From: Natronobiforma cellulositropha
GTDB taxonomy: Archaea > Halobacteriota > Halobacteria > Halobacteriales > Natrialbaceae
Direction: 5' to 3'
DNA length: 47,996 nucleotides
Assembly: GCF_025629245.1 (NCBI RefSeq)
Contig: NZ_JANZXN010000019.1
Location: 115,271-163,266, forward strand
In this document: one piece after another, positions 16,594 through 24,414 of the stretch
How the letters are laid out: every line of letters begins with the position of its first letter
Numbering within the stretch: the first letter of the stretch is position 1
The notes under the pieces: generated by a model
Told to the model about the DNA's origin: nothing
The model's database searches: none
What the model saw: the letters and a program-made list of their open reading frames with translations, nothing else
Program-made: the position numbers and the translations under genes

Positions 16594-19500
16594 ATGCGTA
16601 AGTCGTGGGGACCCCTGGGTGGGTTCGTCCCCGTCGAGTCGAGTCGAATCGTCCTGATAGCACTTCTCGGTGTACTGTTCGTCGGTCTAGCGAGTGTTTC
16701 CGGCGGTGCGGCCGTCGACGACGGTGTCGTTGATCCGGTGGTCCTCGACGAGGACTCGAGCAACGCCACGTTCGTCCTCATCGAGGGGGCGAACGACTCT
16801 CTCGAGCACGTCGTTCCGATAGCGCCGAACGAGACGGCAGCGAACCTCTCTCTGGAGCACTTCACCTCGGGACCGACACCGGAGGAGACGACCAGCAGAG
16901 ACACCAGTGGGTTCACCACGTTCAGCGACAATCCGGCACCGGTGGAGGTGACTGTTCTCCAGCCGGATATGCCAACGCCAGCGACCGGCAACCTGGTCAC
17001 CGAGTGGAAACCGATTCCCGGCGCGACGGTGGATCTCGGGCCAGGGGGTGAGGGAGAGACAGGGTCGGACGGAATCTGGCTCTCTGATCCGCTCTATCCC
17101 GGAGAGTATACAGGAACGGTAGATCTGTCGACCGCTCCGTTTGGTGACCGGCTTACCCGCGGCATCGAACACAGTTTTTCGGTTACCGTCCCCAGTGGCC
17201 TGGACGAAGACCCTGACCCGGTTCCCGTCAGCTATGCTTTTTCGCATGGGTGTGATTTGCCACCGTATCCTCAACACCAGCCGAGTATGGGCTGGTGGGA
17301 ACACAGGGTAGAAAACCAGTGGCCGAACTGGGAGGAAGAGAGCGTCTATATCGACCAGGACGTCGCTGTCGCTGGTGAGCCGGTGACGATCAGGGCGTGT
17401 AACCCCTTCAGGATTCTCGACTACGAACATCGGTGGGAGTTCGACGACGACACGACGGCAACCGGCGAGGAGTTCACGCTGGTCTTCGACGAACCCGGAA
17501 CCTACGACTTCTGGCCGGTCGACGGCCCAACACACGAGACGGAACTCACCGTCGTGAATCTCGAGGTTGAGCGCGCTTTCGGCGACGAGTGGCTGGCCGA
17601 AGCGAGCCAGAACCAGGACTACTACCAGGTCACGTCGACGGAGACCGAACGCAGCCTCACGTCGGTGACCGTCGACGGCGTCGAGGCCGTCGAGGTTGGT
17701 CTAAACGACTTCCGCGCACCGCTCGAGGTGCGCGACGGCCGGCCGGTCGAGGTCGTCGCGGAGTTCGACGATGGCGCAGTGGCTGAGAAGACGACCGACA
17801 GTGCGATGTTCGTCGACCCAGCCTGGGTCGAGACGTTGTCCTCACATTTCTTTATAGAGTCTTCAGACGAGTGGTGTGAACTCGATGGATCGTGGCCCGA
17901 AGGAGATGCGTGTGAACTGTGGATTGCGGGGGACGCGTACGAAGCTCACTGGGCGGGAATTCCAGGAACGGTCGACGATGAGTCGTTCTCTGTTCATGCA
18001 AAAGAAGAGATGATACTCATGGTATTGACACCAACGGGTGACTTAACTGGTCAGACCGAAGTTGGTGCTGGCGTCAGTCTGCTCGGCAAAGGATTCTCAG
18101 TAGAGGGAGAAGAGCAGATGGACTTCGATGGCGTACAGTACCAGGGAGGCGACGGGACGGCCGAAGCGAAACTAGATAGAAAAGTACGACTGCCGAGATG
18201 GCTCGGTGGAGGGCGGTCGGGAGGAGGTGGGGAACCCGTGTACGAGAGAGATGGTATTGGAGGTATCGATGCCAGCGCCCACATCGCCGTGGTGCTCAGA
18301 ATACAGTACGAAAATAACGAAGACATCGAGATAGTGAGCATGAGTGTCGGTGGCGACATCGAGGCATATGGTAAGATCGAAGGGTCCGCTTTCGGTGCAT
18401 CCGCTCACGGCGAGATCTATGGTGGTGGAAGCCCAGACATCTACTTCAAAGAGGGCTCCGGTGGAATTCCGGTAGACGGAGCCGAGGTGGAATTCTACCT
18501 TGGCGTCAGAGGCGGATACAAAGTGTATTTTTGGAGCGGCGATTTCGATGAAGAGCTTCTCGACCTACATCTATATACCGGGAATGTACCGGGCACCAAC
18601 TCGCTCTCGACCCACTCGTTCGAGGGAGGGGCGCTGAACGAACAGACCATCTCGAGGTCTGGCGACGCCGGTGAGAGTACGGAGTGGTCGGTCGTCTCAC
18701 CGACCGGTGCCCAGCCACTCCCCGACGTGCCCGCAGTCGATGCGGGGACGCTGCAACCGCTGTCGTCTGACAGCCCCTCCGTTCTCGGAAGCGATACGGA
18801 CAGACTCACCGACCGCCCCTACGAGGACAGCGAACCATCGATCGCGGCGACGCCCGACGGCCACGCCGTCGTCTGGAGTTCGCTCGAGGAGGGCGCGGCG
18901 GTCGAAGACGGCCACGACATTCGGTTCCGTCACTACGACGAGAGTACCGGCTGGGGTGAGGTCGTCGACCTCACCGACACCGACCGCCACGACTTCGATC
19001 CGACGCTCGTCAGCCGTGCGGACACCGACGAGTTGTTCGCCGTCTGGTCGCGCATCGACGCCGATGCGAGCCAGCTCTCGGGTCCCGAGGAGGCTGCCCC
19101 ACACCTCGAGATCGTCACCGCGCACTTCGACGGCGACACCTGGAGTGAGCCGACGATCGTCAGCGACACCGGCGCCCTCGAGCGGGCACCCGTCGCCGCT
19201 GCGAGCGAGGAGGGCTGGCTCGTCGCCTGGATGCACCACGCCAACGACGACCGCCTCGACATCGAGAACGCCACCGTCGAGTACCGCCTCTTCGACGCGG
19301 ACGCCGACCAGATCCGGGAGGGATCGATCGAGAACGCCTCGCTCCCGGCCGTCGGCAGCCGCGCCGACGGCACGTTCGACCTGGCCTACTTCGAGTCGGC
19401 GGCCAACGTCACCGAGTCCGGAACGCTCGCCCACGGCGCCGTCGACGACGACGGCTTCGACCGCGACGGCGCACACGAGTACGCCCTCGAACAGTACGGC

Positions 19501-22500
19501 GACCACGCCGTCGACGGGGGCGAACTCGTCTGGACCTGGAACGACGGCGGCGAGTCGGCGCTCGAACACGCCGACGGATCGGACGTCCAGCGCCTCGAGA
19601 CCGACCCCGATCTGGCGGGGATCGGCGAACTCGTCTTGCGTGCCGACGGCGACGAGTCGCTGTTGCTCTACCGGGGTGCGCCCGGCTTCCAGAACACGAG
19701 CGACCTGCTGTACCGTCAGGCCGTCGACGGCGAGTGGAGCGGCGACCACCGCTTCGTCGGTGGTCCCGACGAGGACCTGACGATCTGGCAGGCCGACGCC
19801 ATCCTCGGTGACGACGGGTTCACCGCGGCCTACGCCGTCCAGGAGCCGGGTATCGAGAACCGGAACGACGTCTTCGTGACGAGCGAGGCGTTCGCTCCGG
19901 CGTACACCCTCGACGCCGCCGGGCCGACCGACGCGGCCGCAGGCGAGACCGTGACGGTCGACACGACCGTCCGAAACGTCGGTGGCGCCAGCGACGACCC
20001 GGTTGCCATCGTCGTCACCGACGGCGACGACGAACTCACGCGCGAGACCGTCGACGCGCTCGGACACAACGAAACCGTGACGGTCCCACTCGCGGTCACC
20101 GTTCCCGAGAGCGGAACCGTCACCGTCTCGCTCGAGGCGGGCGCGTCCGACGAGTGGTACACGCAGCGGGCCGACCTCCGACTCGGCTCGCCGAACCTGG
20201 TGGTCACCGCCGCCGAGGGTGAGATGCACTCGGAGACGAACGCGACGCTGACCGTCGGTGTCGAGAACCGCGGCGGCGTCAACGTGAGCGCCGTGCCGGT
20301 CCGGATCGACGACGGCGACGGCTGGACGACGAACGTGAGCCTCGACGTCGCCGCAGGGGCGACCGAGACGGCTGCGATTCCGGTCGACCTCTCTGCGTTC
20401 AACACGAGCGCGCTCGACCGCGTGACGATCGATCCCGAGGGCACCGTGCCCGCGGTGACGTCCAGCCCGGCGCTCAGCGAGCTCACGACACGGCTGTTCA
20501 CGCCCGATATCCGTCTCCACCACCCGATCACGTACCAGTCGGTCGAACGCTACGATACCGAAGACGGGACGTACGCGCGTGTGGGCGTCACCAACTACGA
20601 ACCGTTCGCGACGAACGCCACGATTACGGTGACCGACCACGACGACGGGGAGTTCTTGGGCGAGAAGACACTCGAGCTGCCGCCGCTCGAGGGGACGACG
20701 ACACATCTCACGACGGTGTTGGTCCCGCTCTCAGACGTCTCGGTCGACCAGACGCTCCACTTCGACGTGGTCGAACAGTCTGACGCGAGGACGGCGATCG
20801 ACCGTACCGTCGACGAGGTCGACGAGGTCGATACCGAAACACTCGCTGCCATCGATATGCGTGTCTACGACGACCTGACGGGCGAGCCGCTCGAAGACGT
20901 GACCATCACTTCGTTCACGGATTTAGCGACGACGGACGCGAACGGTGAGGCTCGAGTCGAACTGACCTCGATACAGGCACTCATCGTCTCGAAACCGGGC
21001 TACAAAGCGGAGACGCACGAAGTGATCTTCACTAGCGGCTACGAGCTGACAGGAGCCGTACGGCTGTCACCCGACCTCGTCGTCGACTCGGTGGAACTCC
21101 CGGACGGTGTCGAACCGGGTGAGTCAGTCACGATAGACGCTGTCGTTCGAAATAACGCATTCGAGGCGGTCTCGAGTGCCGTCGAGTTCTCGGCTGACGG
21201 TGTCGAAATCGCCTCCGAACGGGTATCGCTGGACGCGAGAGACGAGACGACGGTAACGGTCGAAACGACCGCGCCGATGAACCGATCGGCCGTCGTCTAC
21301 ACGGCCCAGGCAGGTGGTGTCGGTGCTCGGTCGGTGACTGCTGTCGGAGTCGAATCGTCCGGTTCCGGTCCGGTTTCGATCGACACCATCGACACACCGG
21401 ATGCGATCGACGTCGCCTCGACCCACTCGGTTCCGGTGACGGTGACGAACGATGGTTCCGACCGCTTCGTCGGCGTCGGAACCGTCAGTCTCACCGGCTA
21501 CACCGACGGCACACAGCCGATCGGTGCAGCAGTGTTCGACATCGCCGCCGGTGAGACGGCCACTCGAGAGATCGACGTCGTTGCGCCCGACACGGGCGTA
21601 GACGGAGCGTTCGTCGTCGAACTCGCCGGGGACACTGCTAGCGAGGCAGTCACGGTGCGGGAAGGAGGTGAACGGGTGTGGGGAGTCCAGACGGGCGGCC
21701 AGATCGTGAGTTCACCGACGATCGTCGATGGACTGGTCTATATCGGGACGCTCAACAACCAGCTGTTCGCAGTCGATGCCGACACCGGGGAGGGCGTCTG
21801 GGGTGTCACAACGGATGGACCGATCTACTCCTCCCCGACGGTTGCAGACGGCACCGTCTACGTCGGCTCGATGGACGGGGGACTCTACGCGCTCGACGCG
21901 TCGACGGGCGGACTCCAGTGGGCGTACAACACGTTCCAGCCGATCACGTCGTCCCCGACGGTTGCAGACGGGACGGTCTATCTCGGTGGGAACGTCCTGT
22001 ACGCGATCGACGCCGAGACGGGTACCAACGAGTGGGTGTTCTCACGGGAGGGAGCGATCGATTCGTCACCGACTGTCGTCGATGGTACGGTGTACGTCGG
22101 CGCCGGTGCTGGAGCCGACGACGAGGGCCACCTCTACGCGATCGACGCACAGACCGGAACCGAAGTGTGGGAGCTCGAGACCGACGGTGACGTGCTCCCG
22201 TCACAGACGGTCGCAGACGGGACCGTCTACGCAGGAACGGCGGCAGGAACCCTGTATGCGGTCGATGCGAGTTCCGGTGAGATAGTGTGGACGGTCGACA
22301 CCAACACGAGCCTCCTGTCTACACCGACGGTAGCCGACGGGGTCGTCTACGTCGGAACCGGCCTCGCCGACGGGGTCCTCCGCGGGTTGTACGCGATCGA
22401 CGCGGACACGGGCGAACAGCGCTGGGTCGGTGACGGTCACGTCCACAGTACCATGTCGTCGTCACCCACGGTCGCTGGCGGAACGGTGTACGTTGGCGAC

Positions 22501-24414
22501 TTTTCGGGGTACGTCCACGCGTTCGATACCGAAACCGGCGCGTACCACTGGCGCCACGTCGTAAGTGAAGGCGTCGAATCCGCACCGACAGTCGCCGACG
22601 GGACGCTCTACGTCGGCTCACTCAACGGGGTGCTCTACGCGCTGAGTACCGAAGGTGATCACACCAGCGACGACTCCCGGGTCACGCTCGGCACACTCGG
22701 TCACGTCGGAGACATGGCCGAAGAGACGCCCGAATTCTCCCTCGAGATTCTCGAGACGAACGCTCCGGTCGAAGCGGGTGAGACACTGACGGTTACTGCG
22801 ACCGTCGAGAACACCGGCACCGCCGCCGGAGAACAGACGGTGACGCTCGAGGTCGGCGGCGAGGTCCGCGATACACGGACCGTCAGTCTCGACCCCGACG
22901 AGACTGACTCGGTCACACTCGAGTGGAAGACCGGCGACGACGACGCCGGAGACCACGAGGTGACGATCTCGAGCGACGACGACAGCGCGAGCGAACCGAT
23001 CACGGTCGAAGCCGTCGCCGAGGCGGTGTTCGTCGTCGACGCACTCGAGACGAACGCTCCGGTCGAAGCGGGTGAGACGCTGACGGTTACTGCGACCGTC
23101 GAGAACACCGGCACCGCCGCCGGAGAACAGACGGTGGCGCTCGAGGTCGGTGGCGAGGTCCGCGATACACGGACCGTCAGTCTCGACCCCGACGAGACTG
23201 ACTCGGTCACACTCGAGTGGAAGACCGGCGACGACGACGCCGGAGACCACGAGGTGACGATCTCGAGCGACGACGAGACCGTCACCAAGACGGTGGCCGT
23301 CGAACTGCCCCCCGAGAGTGTGTTCGCACTCGAGGGAGTCGACCTCACCACTCCAATCGATGCCGGGGAGACGGTGACGGTGACTGCGACGGTCGAGAAC
23401 GTCGGCGACGCCGCCGGTGAAACGGCTGTGACGCTCGAGGTCGGTGGCGAGGAGTCAGACTCACGGGCTGTTAGCCTCGACCCCGGTGAGACGGACACGG
23501 TCGCGCTCGAGTGGAGGACGGAAACCGCCGGTGAGTACGACCTCACCGTCTCCGTCGGAAACGATAGCACCACCGAGACCGTGGTAGTCGACGAACCAGG
23601 CCAGGCCGAACTCGTCGTGGCCGCGCTCGAGACGAACGCCCCCGTCGAAGCGGGTGACACCCTCACAGTCACCGCAACCGTCGAGAATACCGGCACCGCC
23701 GCCGGGGAACAGACGGTGTCGCTCGAGGTCGGCGGCGAGGTCCGCGACACACGGACCGTCAGCCTCGACCCCGACGAGACTGAAACGGTCACGCTCGAGT
23801 GGGAGACCGGCGACGACGACGTCGGCGACCACGATATCACCGTCTCGAGCGACGACGACAGCGCGAGCGAACCGATCACGGTGGACGCTGTCGCTGAAGC
23901 GGTCTTCGTCGTCGACGCACTCGAGACGAACACCCCAATCGAGACCGGTGAGACGCTGACGGTTACCGCGACCGTCGAGAACACCGGCACCGCTGCGGGC
24001 GAACAGACGGTCATCCTCGAGATCGGCGGCGAGGTCCGCGACGCGCGGACGCTCGTGCTCGAAGCGGATGCGACGAACACAGTCACGCTCGAGTGGGAGA
24101 CGACCACGGCCGACACCGGTGAGTACGACGCAGTCGTCGTGACGGACGACGCCGTCGTCTCCGAACCGGTGACCGTCGACGACAGCGAAGAAGCCGACGG
24201 CATCGACGTGAACGGGATCACGGCGTACGACCCAACCGGCGACGGCCTGTACGTCGACTTCACCGGAGACGGGACGGTCGGGTACGATGACGCCGTACTC
24301 TTCTTCGAAAATCTACAGAGCGAGGCGATTCAGGAGAACATCGAGGCGTTCGACGTGATCGGCGACGGCCGCGTGGGCTTCGCAGACATCGTCGCGGTGT
24401 TCAACATGGCGTAG
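16594..24414 (+). CDS. Giant secreted mosaic protein: propellers, CARDB repeats, dockerin-like end
   Basis: A 2606-residue protein with an N-terminal signal (hydrophobic 18-40, VLIALLGVLFVGLASVSGGA). Later regions, approximately: carboxypeptidase-regulatory-like (119-173); PKD-like (253-319, FDEPGTYDF); a lower-GC region of unknown fold (413-690); a repetitive propeller-like region (736-1096); CARDB/Ig-like domains (1099-1413 and 1492-1690) around another carboxypeptidase-regulatory-like domain (1420-1489, TTDANGEARVEL); an eight-bladed PQQ-type propeller (1695-2019, repeated SSPTVADGTVYVG and LYALDA); five CARDB repeats (2048-2529); and a dockerin-like pair of calcium loops (2539-2606, DFTGDGTVGYDDA and DVIGDGRVGFADI). 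Only four cysteines are apparent, all in the N-terminal quarter. There are many N-glycosylation sequons. No PGF-CTERM, transmembrane anchor or catalytic motif is seen, so it is probably released or held by protein-protein contacts. The role is likely adhesive or scaffolding; the ligand is unknown. Confidence 0.9.
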   Translation: MRKSWGPLGGFVPVESSRIVLIALLGVLFVGLASVSGGAAVDDGVVDPVVLDEDSSNATFVLIEGANDSLEHVVPIAPNETAANLSLEHFTSGPTPEETTSRDTSGFTTFSDNPAPVEVTVLQPDMPTPATGNLVTEWKPIPGATVDLGPGGEGETGSDGIWLSDPLYPGEYTGTVDLSTAPFGDRLTRGIEHSFSVTVPSGLDEDPDPVPVSYAFSHGCDLPPYPQHQPSMGWWEHRVENQWPNWEEESVYIDQDVAVAGEPVTIRACNPFRILDYEHRWEFDDDTTATGEEFTLVFDEPGTYDFWPVDGPTHETELTVVNLEVERAFGDEWLAEASQNQDYYQVTSTETERSLTSVTVDGVEAVEVGLNDFRAPLEVRDGRPVEVVAEFDDGAVAEKTTDSAMFVDPAWVETLSSHFFIESSDEWCELDGSWPEGDACELWIAGDAYEAHWAGIPGTVDDESFSVHAKEEMILMVLTPTGDLTGQTEVGAGVSLLGKGFSVEGEEQMDFDGVQYQGGDGTAEAKLDRKVRLPRWLGGGRSGGGGEPVYERDGIGGIDASAHIAVVLRIQYENNEDIEIVSMSVGGDIEAYGKIEGSAFGASAHGEIYGGGSPDIYFKEGSGGIPVDGAEVEFYLGVRGGYKVYFWSGDFDEELLDLHLYTGNVPGTNSLSTHSFEGGALNEQTISRSGDAGESTEWSVVSPTGAQPLPDVPAVDAGTLQPLSSDSPSVLGSDTDRLTDRPYEDSEPSIAATPDGHAVVWSSLEEGAAVEDGHDIRFRHYDESTGWGEVVDLTDTDRHDFDPTLVSRADTDELFAVWSRIDADASQLSGPEEAAPHLEIVTAHFDGDTWSEPTIVSDTGALERAPVAAASEEGWLVAWMHHANDDRLDIENATVEYRLFDADADQIREGSIENASLPAVGSRADGTFDLAYFESAANVTESGTLAHGAVDDDGFDRDGAHEYALEQYGDHAVDGGELVWTWNDGGESALEHADGSDVQRLETDPDLAGIGELVLRADGDESLLLYRGAPGFQNTSDLLYRQAVDGEWSGDHRFVGGPDEDLTIWQADAILGDDGFTAAYAVQEPGIENRNDVFVTSEAFAPAYTLDAAGPTDAAAGETVTVDTTVRNVGGASDDPVAIVVTDGDDELTRETVDALGHNETVTVPLAVTVPESGTVTVSLEAGASDEWYTQRADLRLGSPNLVVTAAEGEMHSETNATLTVGVENRGGVNVSAVPVRIDDGDGWTTNVSLDVAAGATETAAIPVDLSAFNTSALDRVTIDPEGTVPAVTSSPALSELTTRLFTPDIRLHHPITYQSVERYDTEDGTYARVGVTNYEPFATNATITVTDHDDGEFLGEKTLELPPLEGTTTHLTTVLVPLSDVSVDQTLHFDVVEQSDARTAIDRTVDEVDEVDTETLAAIDMRVYDDLTGEPLEDVTITSFTDLATTDANGEARVELTSIQALIVSKPGYKAETHEVIFTSGYELTGAVRLSPDLVVDSVELPDGVEPGESVTIDAVVRNNAFEAVSSAVEFSADGVEIASERVSLDARDETTVTVETTAPMNRSAVVYTAQAGGVGARSVTAVGVESSGSGPVSIDTIDTPDAIDVASTHSVPVTVTNDGSDRFVGVGTVSLTGYTDGTQPIGAAVFDIAAGETATREIDVVAPDTGVDGAFVVELAGDTASEAVTVREGGERVWGVQTGGQIVSSPTIVDGLVYIGTLNNQLFAVDADTGEGVWGVTTDGPIYSSPTVADGTVYVGSMDGGLYALDASTGGLQWAYNTFQPITSSPTVADGTVYLGGNVLYAIDAETGTNEWVFSREGAIDSSPTVVDGTVYVGAGAGADDEGHLYAIDAQTGTEVWELETDGDVLPSQTVADGTVYAGTAAGTLYAVDASSGEIVWTVDTNTSLLSTPTVADGVVYVGTGLADGVLRGLYAIDADTGEQRWVGDGHVHSTMSSSPTVAGGTVYVGDFSGYVHAFDTETGAYHWRHVVSEGVESAPTVADGTLYVGSLNGVLYALSTEGDHTSDDSRVTLGTLGHVGDMAEETPEFSLEILETNAPVEAGETLTVTATVENTGTAAGEQTVTLEVGGEVRDTRTVSLDPDETDSVTLEWKTGDDDAGDHEVTISSDDDSASEPITVEAVAEAVFVVDALETNAPVEAGETLTVTATVENTGTAAGEQTVALEVGGEVRDTRTVSLDPDETDSVTLEWKTGDDDAGDHEVTISSDDETVTKTVAVELPPESVFALEGVDLTTPIDAGETVTVTATVENVGDAAGETAVTLEVGGEESDSRAVSLDPGETDTVALEWRTETAGEYDLTVSVGNDSTTETVVVDEPGQAELVVAALETNAPVEAGDTLTVTATVENTGTAAGEQTVSLEVGGEVRDTRTVSLDPDETETVTLEWETGDDDVGDHDITVSSDDDSASEPITVDAVAEAVFVVDALETNTPIETGETLTVTATVENTGTAAGEQTVILEIGGEVRDARTLVLEADATNTVTLEWETTTADTGEYDAVVVTDDAVVSEPVTVDDSEEADGIDVNGITAYDPTGDGLYVDFTGDGTVGYDDAVLFFENLQSEAIQENIEAFDVIGDGRVGFADIVAVFNMA
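22735..24180 (+). repeat. Five tandem CARDB-repeat units within the exoprotein gene
   Basis: Units of about 280-300 nt start near 22735, 23029, 23320, 23610 and 23910, each encoding a motif of the form APVEAGETLTVTATVENTG then VSLDPDETDSVTLEW. Units 1 and 2 (22750-22980 and 23044-23274, offset 294 nt) differ at only three positions that I can count over 231 nt. Unit 4 is close but has many synonymous changes; units 3 and 5 are more divergent. This indicates recent duplication or gene conversion of units 1 and 2. Confidence 0.85.

Follow-up and report, generated by a model that had tools for sequence, protein, structure and literature searches.

Cellulosomes have been described for anaerobic bacteria, and the combination of a scaffoldin bearing its own dockerin with an anchored cohesin follows the logic of the bacterial cellulosome. 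Archaeal cohesins and dockerins have been found in other settings. Scaffoldin-like proteins have been reported from ANME archaea, which encode up to five cohesins on a dockerin-bearing protein and carry dockerins on solute-binding proteins (PMC9012536). The way in which haloarchaea hydrolyse polysaccharides was described in 2023 as almost unknown (PMC10267330). Two studies of haloarchaeal cellulose/mannan clusters (PMC10267330, PMC10963439) name neither a cohesin nor a scaffoldin, and the second takes the dockerin as a substrate-binding domain. Among open-licence papers we found none that describes a scaffoldin from haloarchaea, and those dealing with polysaccharide use by haloarchaea either treat the dockerin as substrate-binding or leave it unmentioned, and never name a cohesin.

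The DNA analysed here (the window, a stretch of 47,996 nucleotides from Natronobiforma cellulositropha) encodes a giant secreted, dockerin-bearing protein of 2606 aa, P0001. Its reading frame (positions 16594-24414, + strand, as are all its features listed below) is open, starts with ATG and specifies a Sec-type N-terminus, with a signal peptide placed approximately at residues 1-40 (16594-16713) on the basis of the hydrophobic stretch SSRIVLIALLGVLFVGLASVSGGAA read off the translation. P0001 is the largest product of the window, as an earlier note made from the sequence had stated, but not of the genome, which contains larger relatives, e.g. a 3851-aa paralogue (L045:5113-16668, contig C34; approximately 53% identity) that also has a C-terminal dockerin. 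Of the two propellers described in the same note, Pfam recognises one: a PQQ/BamB-like propeller (residues ~1693-2010, 21670-22623; PF13360, E 1.7e-52) is followed by five CARDB repeats in tandem (residues 2048-2529, 22735-24180; PF07705, E 2.5e-58), with weaker CARDB repeats upstream. The putative first propeller (residues ~730-1080, 18781-19833), in contrast, is matched by no Pfam model, and the sole evidence for it is a pattern of repeats. At residues 278-305 (17425-17508), a PKD-like stretch matches PF18911 with E 7e-4, below the cut-off. The double calcium-loop module noticed at the very end was confirmed as two F-hand loops, i.e. DFTGDGTVGYDD (residues 2555-2566, 24256-24291) and DVIGDGRVGFAD (residues 2587-2598, 24352-24387), which lie within a C-terminal dockerin (residues 2544-2606, 24223-24411); no PGF-CTERM or transmembrane anchor was seen after it, in agreement with the first reading. 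With its propellers, CARDB repeats and PKD-like stretch, P0001 probably serves in binding or as a spacer, rather than in any known type of catalysis. Its gene lies among queuosine-pathway-like and other housekeeping genes (named by sequence reading), apart from the dockerin clusters described below.

Pfam scores the tail of P0001 below the threshold for Dockerin_1 (15.7 bits against a cut-off of 22.9, E 0.017). A PhoX homologue with a dockerin of the same family passes this cut-off with 23.4 bits, and the threshold marks how far detection reaches here; it does not define a dockerin. An AlphaFold model of the 78-residue tail (pLDDT 91.5) has helices at residues 36-44, 49-58 and 68-77 and none ahead of loop 1; two F-hand loops, each followed by a helix, without a leading E-helix, form a type I-like dockerin layout. 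In a fold search of the PDB, the top three matches of this model were dockerins (prob 0.80, 0.51 and 0.38, with a non-significant E of 0.32 or worse), while EF-hand proteins had prob <0.1.

When the genome was searched with the P0001 tail for other proteins ending in the same pair of loops, as the earlier note had proposed, 46 further copies were found (E 4e-9 to 1e-24), giving a total of 47, a result far beyond chance. The D, G and F positions are conserved among these copies, and all those inspected form the C-terminal end of their ORFs. Most of the proteins are secreted, many with a Tat-type signal at the start. The ORFs are concentrated on contigs C23, C54 and C45. Pfam analysis of 44 dockerin proteins identified GH5 (16 proteins), GH9 (4) and GH10 (3), together with GH26, GH43, GH81, PL14, CBM6, CBM35, a serpin, the family 5 solute-binding domain SBP_bac_5 and others; enzymes that degrade polysaccharides, mostly cellulose or xylan, predominate in the system. 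Position 10 of loop 2 is F in all 46 copies, loop 1 carries the pair F-N in 38 of 46, and in 27 of 46 the recognition pair is identical in both loops, as might be expected, by analogy with known dockerins, of a dockerin with a dual binding mode.

The gene order around P0002, a Pfam-recognised cohesin discussed below, revealed in ten islands (L108-L120, e.g. L120:263-3781) a dockerin-bearing ORF of ~870 aa, assigned to PhoX by Pfam, followed after 3-120 bp by the gene for a small secreted protein whose end is PGF-CTERM-like. Named examples of this pair come from Haloterrigena, Natrialba, Natrinema, Halopiger and others. The domain of the small protein is a cohesin; of ten members tested, Pfam detects it in a single one (PF00963, 1.5e-7). 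A search with hmmsearch of the new cohesin profile against PDB sequences returned nothing, and the homology therefore rests on profile-profile and fold comparison. In the former, hhalign gave 93-94% for the new cohesins against Pfam-verified haloarchaeal cohesins, compared with 1.5-9% for CARDB controls. In the latter, one scaffoldin repeat (see below) was modelled by AlphaFold with nine strands (pLDDT 87.9, pTM 0.78), and its 47 best Foldseek matches in the PDB were all cohesins (top match 2jh2, E 1.9e-8, TM 0.79; also 2xdh of A. fulgidus, 1aoh, 1ohz and 3ul4). The overlooked family is thus one of cohesins, with a nine-stranded beta-sandwich as predicted by the model.

In the genome under study, the profile search detected six or seven cohesins of the new family outside dockerin ORFs, and these include both a multi-cohesin scaffoldin and an anchored single cohesin. 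The scaffoldin ORF (C23:1-3365) consists of a Tat-type signal, GH5 (Pfam) and at least five cohesins; the single cohesin (C23:6046-6681) has a signal peptide and a C-terminal membrane helix, through which, judging by its sequence, it would provide cell-surface anchoring. Both lie inside the main cluster of dockerin enzymes. No feature that would fix the scaffoldin itself to the cell was seen in this genome. Contig C60 starts with one cohesin followed by CBM5/12 and PKD (Pfam), and the ends of C23 and C60 overlap by 232 bp with 99.1% identity, which suggests either one gene split by the assembly or two near-identical repeats; judging from this overlap, the C23 scaffoldin probably continues on C60 with CBM5/12 and PKD. 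As the genome combines 46 other dockerin proteins with cohesins on a scaffold, the microbe probably builds a cellulosome. The earlier note had supposed that a cohesin encoded elsewhere would make this an archaeal dockerin-cohesin surface complex, and the computational evidence of sequence, fold, gene order and co-occurrence now points to such a complex.

Dockerin-rich relatives encode scaffoldins with three to eight cohesins, in some cases next to an anchored cohesin inside the enzyme clusters (genomes G344, G321 and G264). The protein of G344 combines GH5 with eight cohesins and is neighboured by a cohesin with a PGF-CTERM-like end. A single ORF of G321 carries three cohesins, FN3, PKD and a CBM5/12 match just under the cut-off, again next to a PGF-like cohesin. 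The scaffoldin of G264 (L155:8101-11106) has five cohesins and its own C-terminal dockerin, with a transmembrane cohesin next to it, and that of G208 (L158:2868-4274) has three cohesins and likewise its own C-terminal dockerin. The last two are possibly adaptor scaffoldins.

The dockerin profile and the new cohesin profile were then compared over 391 genomes: 140 had both, 30 the dockerin only, 4 the cohesin only and 217 neither (OR 253, p 9e-70). Because the cohesin profile also matches a domain inside the PhoX-dockerin ORF, this co-occurrence would be inflated; with the count limited to cohesins encoded by separate, short ORFs, OR was still 53 (p 5e-32), with the minor exception of G208, whose short ORF bears a dockerin of its own. 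Within the taxonomic family of the studied genome, 48 genomes had both, one the dockerin only, none the cohesin only and 52 neither. Twelve genera of this family are mixed for dockerin presence, with one discordant genome (CMH p 1e-12), which indicates that the presence and absence of dockerin and cohesin change together repeatedly. A sharper profile was applied to six dockerin-positive, cohesin-negative genomes. G381 and G046 gained a match, while G079, G089, G339 and G303, with 3-7 dockerins each, contained no convincing cohesin of the new family even with this profile.

Based on these observations, we consider it likely that P0001 is one of about 47 secreted clients of a cellulosome-like system in haloarchaea. 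The dockerin formed by its last ~60 residues would plug into cohesins of a family mostly invisible to Pfam, which would be presented by two carriers: (i) a secreted scaffoldin in which at least five cohesins are joined to a GH5 endoglucanase, with CBM5/12 and PKD as its probable end, and (ii) a small protein whose single cohesin is combined with a signal peptide and a C-terminal membrane helix. Docked in this way, the enzymes, many of them Tat-exported, and the Sec-exported P0001 would be gathered on the scaffold and retained at the cell. We infer the binding between cohesin and dockerin, its dependence on calcium, the joining of C23 and C60 and the anchoring in vivo. More broadly, it is fairly likely that true cellulosomes exist in several families of haloarchaea, built from a two-fold symmetric F-N dockerin, overlooked cohesins on scaffoldins, and single-cohesin cell anchors of the PGF-CTERM or transmembrane type, and that the same pair tethers phosphatases and giant propeller/CARDB proteins.

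The choice of the cohesin partner deserves comment, as the genome contains only one cohesin recognised by Pfam, P0002 (L001:1267-2019; C22:94041-94790), which has a signal and a PGF-CTERM-like end and was at first assumed to be the dockerin receptor, i.e. a cell-surface anchor. The presence of Pfam cohesins does show a partial-looking association with dockerins, but several cohesin groups are mixed in this measure. The P0002 family taken by itself has no association with dockerins over the 391 genomes (OR 1.09, p 0.73), and for this reason P0002 was rejected as the receptor. Within the taxonomic family of the studied genome, almost every genome has a member of the P0002 family, even where dockerins are absent, and its neighbour in several genomes is a gene for a lipoprotein instead of one for a dockerin protein. 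That the dockerins bind P0002 is therefore very improbable. It also seems very unlikely that the C-terminal pair of loops is a substrate-binding or calcium-stabilised module instead of a protein-protein plug, even though haloarchaeal dockerins have been read as substrate-binding in publications on Natronoglomus (PMC10963439) and on GAG-degraders (PMC13260240), where the proteins concerned are mannanases and a GAG lyase. Against this reading, the pair tracks the new cohesin family over 391 genomes and within genera, and it is present on proteins that have no common substrate, namely a solute-binding protein, a serpin and a phosphatase; moreover, ORFs with 3-8 cohesins are found in the same clusters.

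A narrower objection concerns P0001 itself. The enzymes might form a cellulosome-like system while the dockerin of P0001 binds some other partner or is a relic. This dockerin is indeed among the more divergent ones, with Y-D at the recognition positions of loop 1 and F-A in loop 2, and its locus is isolated. On the other hand, neither of its loops has lost the conserved positions or the aromatic residue at position 10, and an end of the same kind is retained in the 3851-aa paralogue, whose two loops both have F-A; F-A is present on other clients too. We regard this explanation as unlikely and favour P0001 as a client of the scaffoldin and the anchored cohesin. The cohesin family mostly missed by Pfam would supply the absent partner and explain why dozens of dockerins occur in some haloarchaea that have had no visible socket. 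Such salt-adapted cohesin-dockerin pairs might also be of use for designer complexes.

A second, different system was observed in two genomes of the same family, G043 and G207 (L100:1-19901, L101:1-19901 and L102:1-12100). In these clusters, subtilase-like ORFs that carry canonical dockerins as well as internal cohesins alternate with ORFs that encode several cohesins and a PGF-CTERM end and reach 2089 aa. It looks like an anchored protease complex.

Among described systems, the one proposed here resembles the bacterial type I cellulosome (Clostridium thermocellum CipA/OlpA) in having C-terminal dockerins on GH5, GH9, GH10, GH26, GH43 and serpin proteins, a multi-cohesin scaffoldin with a CBM (here CBM5/12, linked via the C23-C60 overlap only) accompanied by a separate anchored cohesin protein, and a cohesin fold that matches 1aoh, 1ohz and 3ul4. 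It differs in its halophilic archaeal host, in cohesins too diverged for Pfam, in a scaffoldin that starts with GH5 and uses CBM5/12 and PKD, in an anchor that is a membrane helix or a PGF-CTERM-like end instead of SLH, in the Tat signals of many clients, and in the dockerin recognition pair F-N. With the non-cellulosomal cohesins and dockerins of Archaeoglobus fulgidus and ANME it shares an archaeal origin and the fold match to 2xdh of A. fulgidus; however, those have no tie to polysaccharide degradation, whereas here cellulases and xylanases make up most of the cargo, and a single genome encodes 47 dockerins. The haloarchaeal cellulose/mannan clusters (PMC10267330, PMC10963439) contain the same kinds of enzymes (GH5, GH9, GH10, GH26, GH81 and PL14), with a dockerin on some proteins, and we suggest that the 258-aa 'S-layer glycoprotein' with two TM segments in the N. 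mannanivorans cluster may be an anchored cohesin. Finally, the Natrialbaceae-type gene pair of PhoX-dockerin and anchored cohesin draws on the same dockerin and cohesin families and the same surface anchoring, but with one enzyme and one cohesin it constitutes a tether, in contrast to the multi-enzyme scaffold proposed for the system described here.
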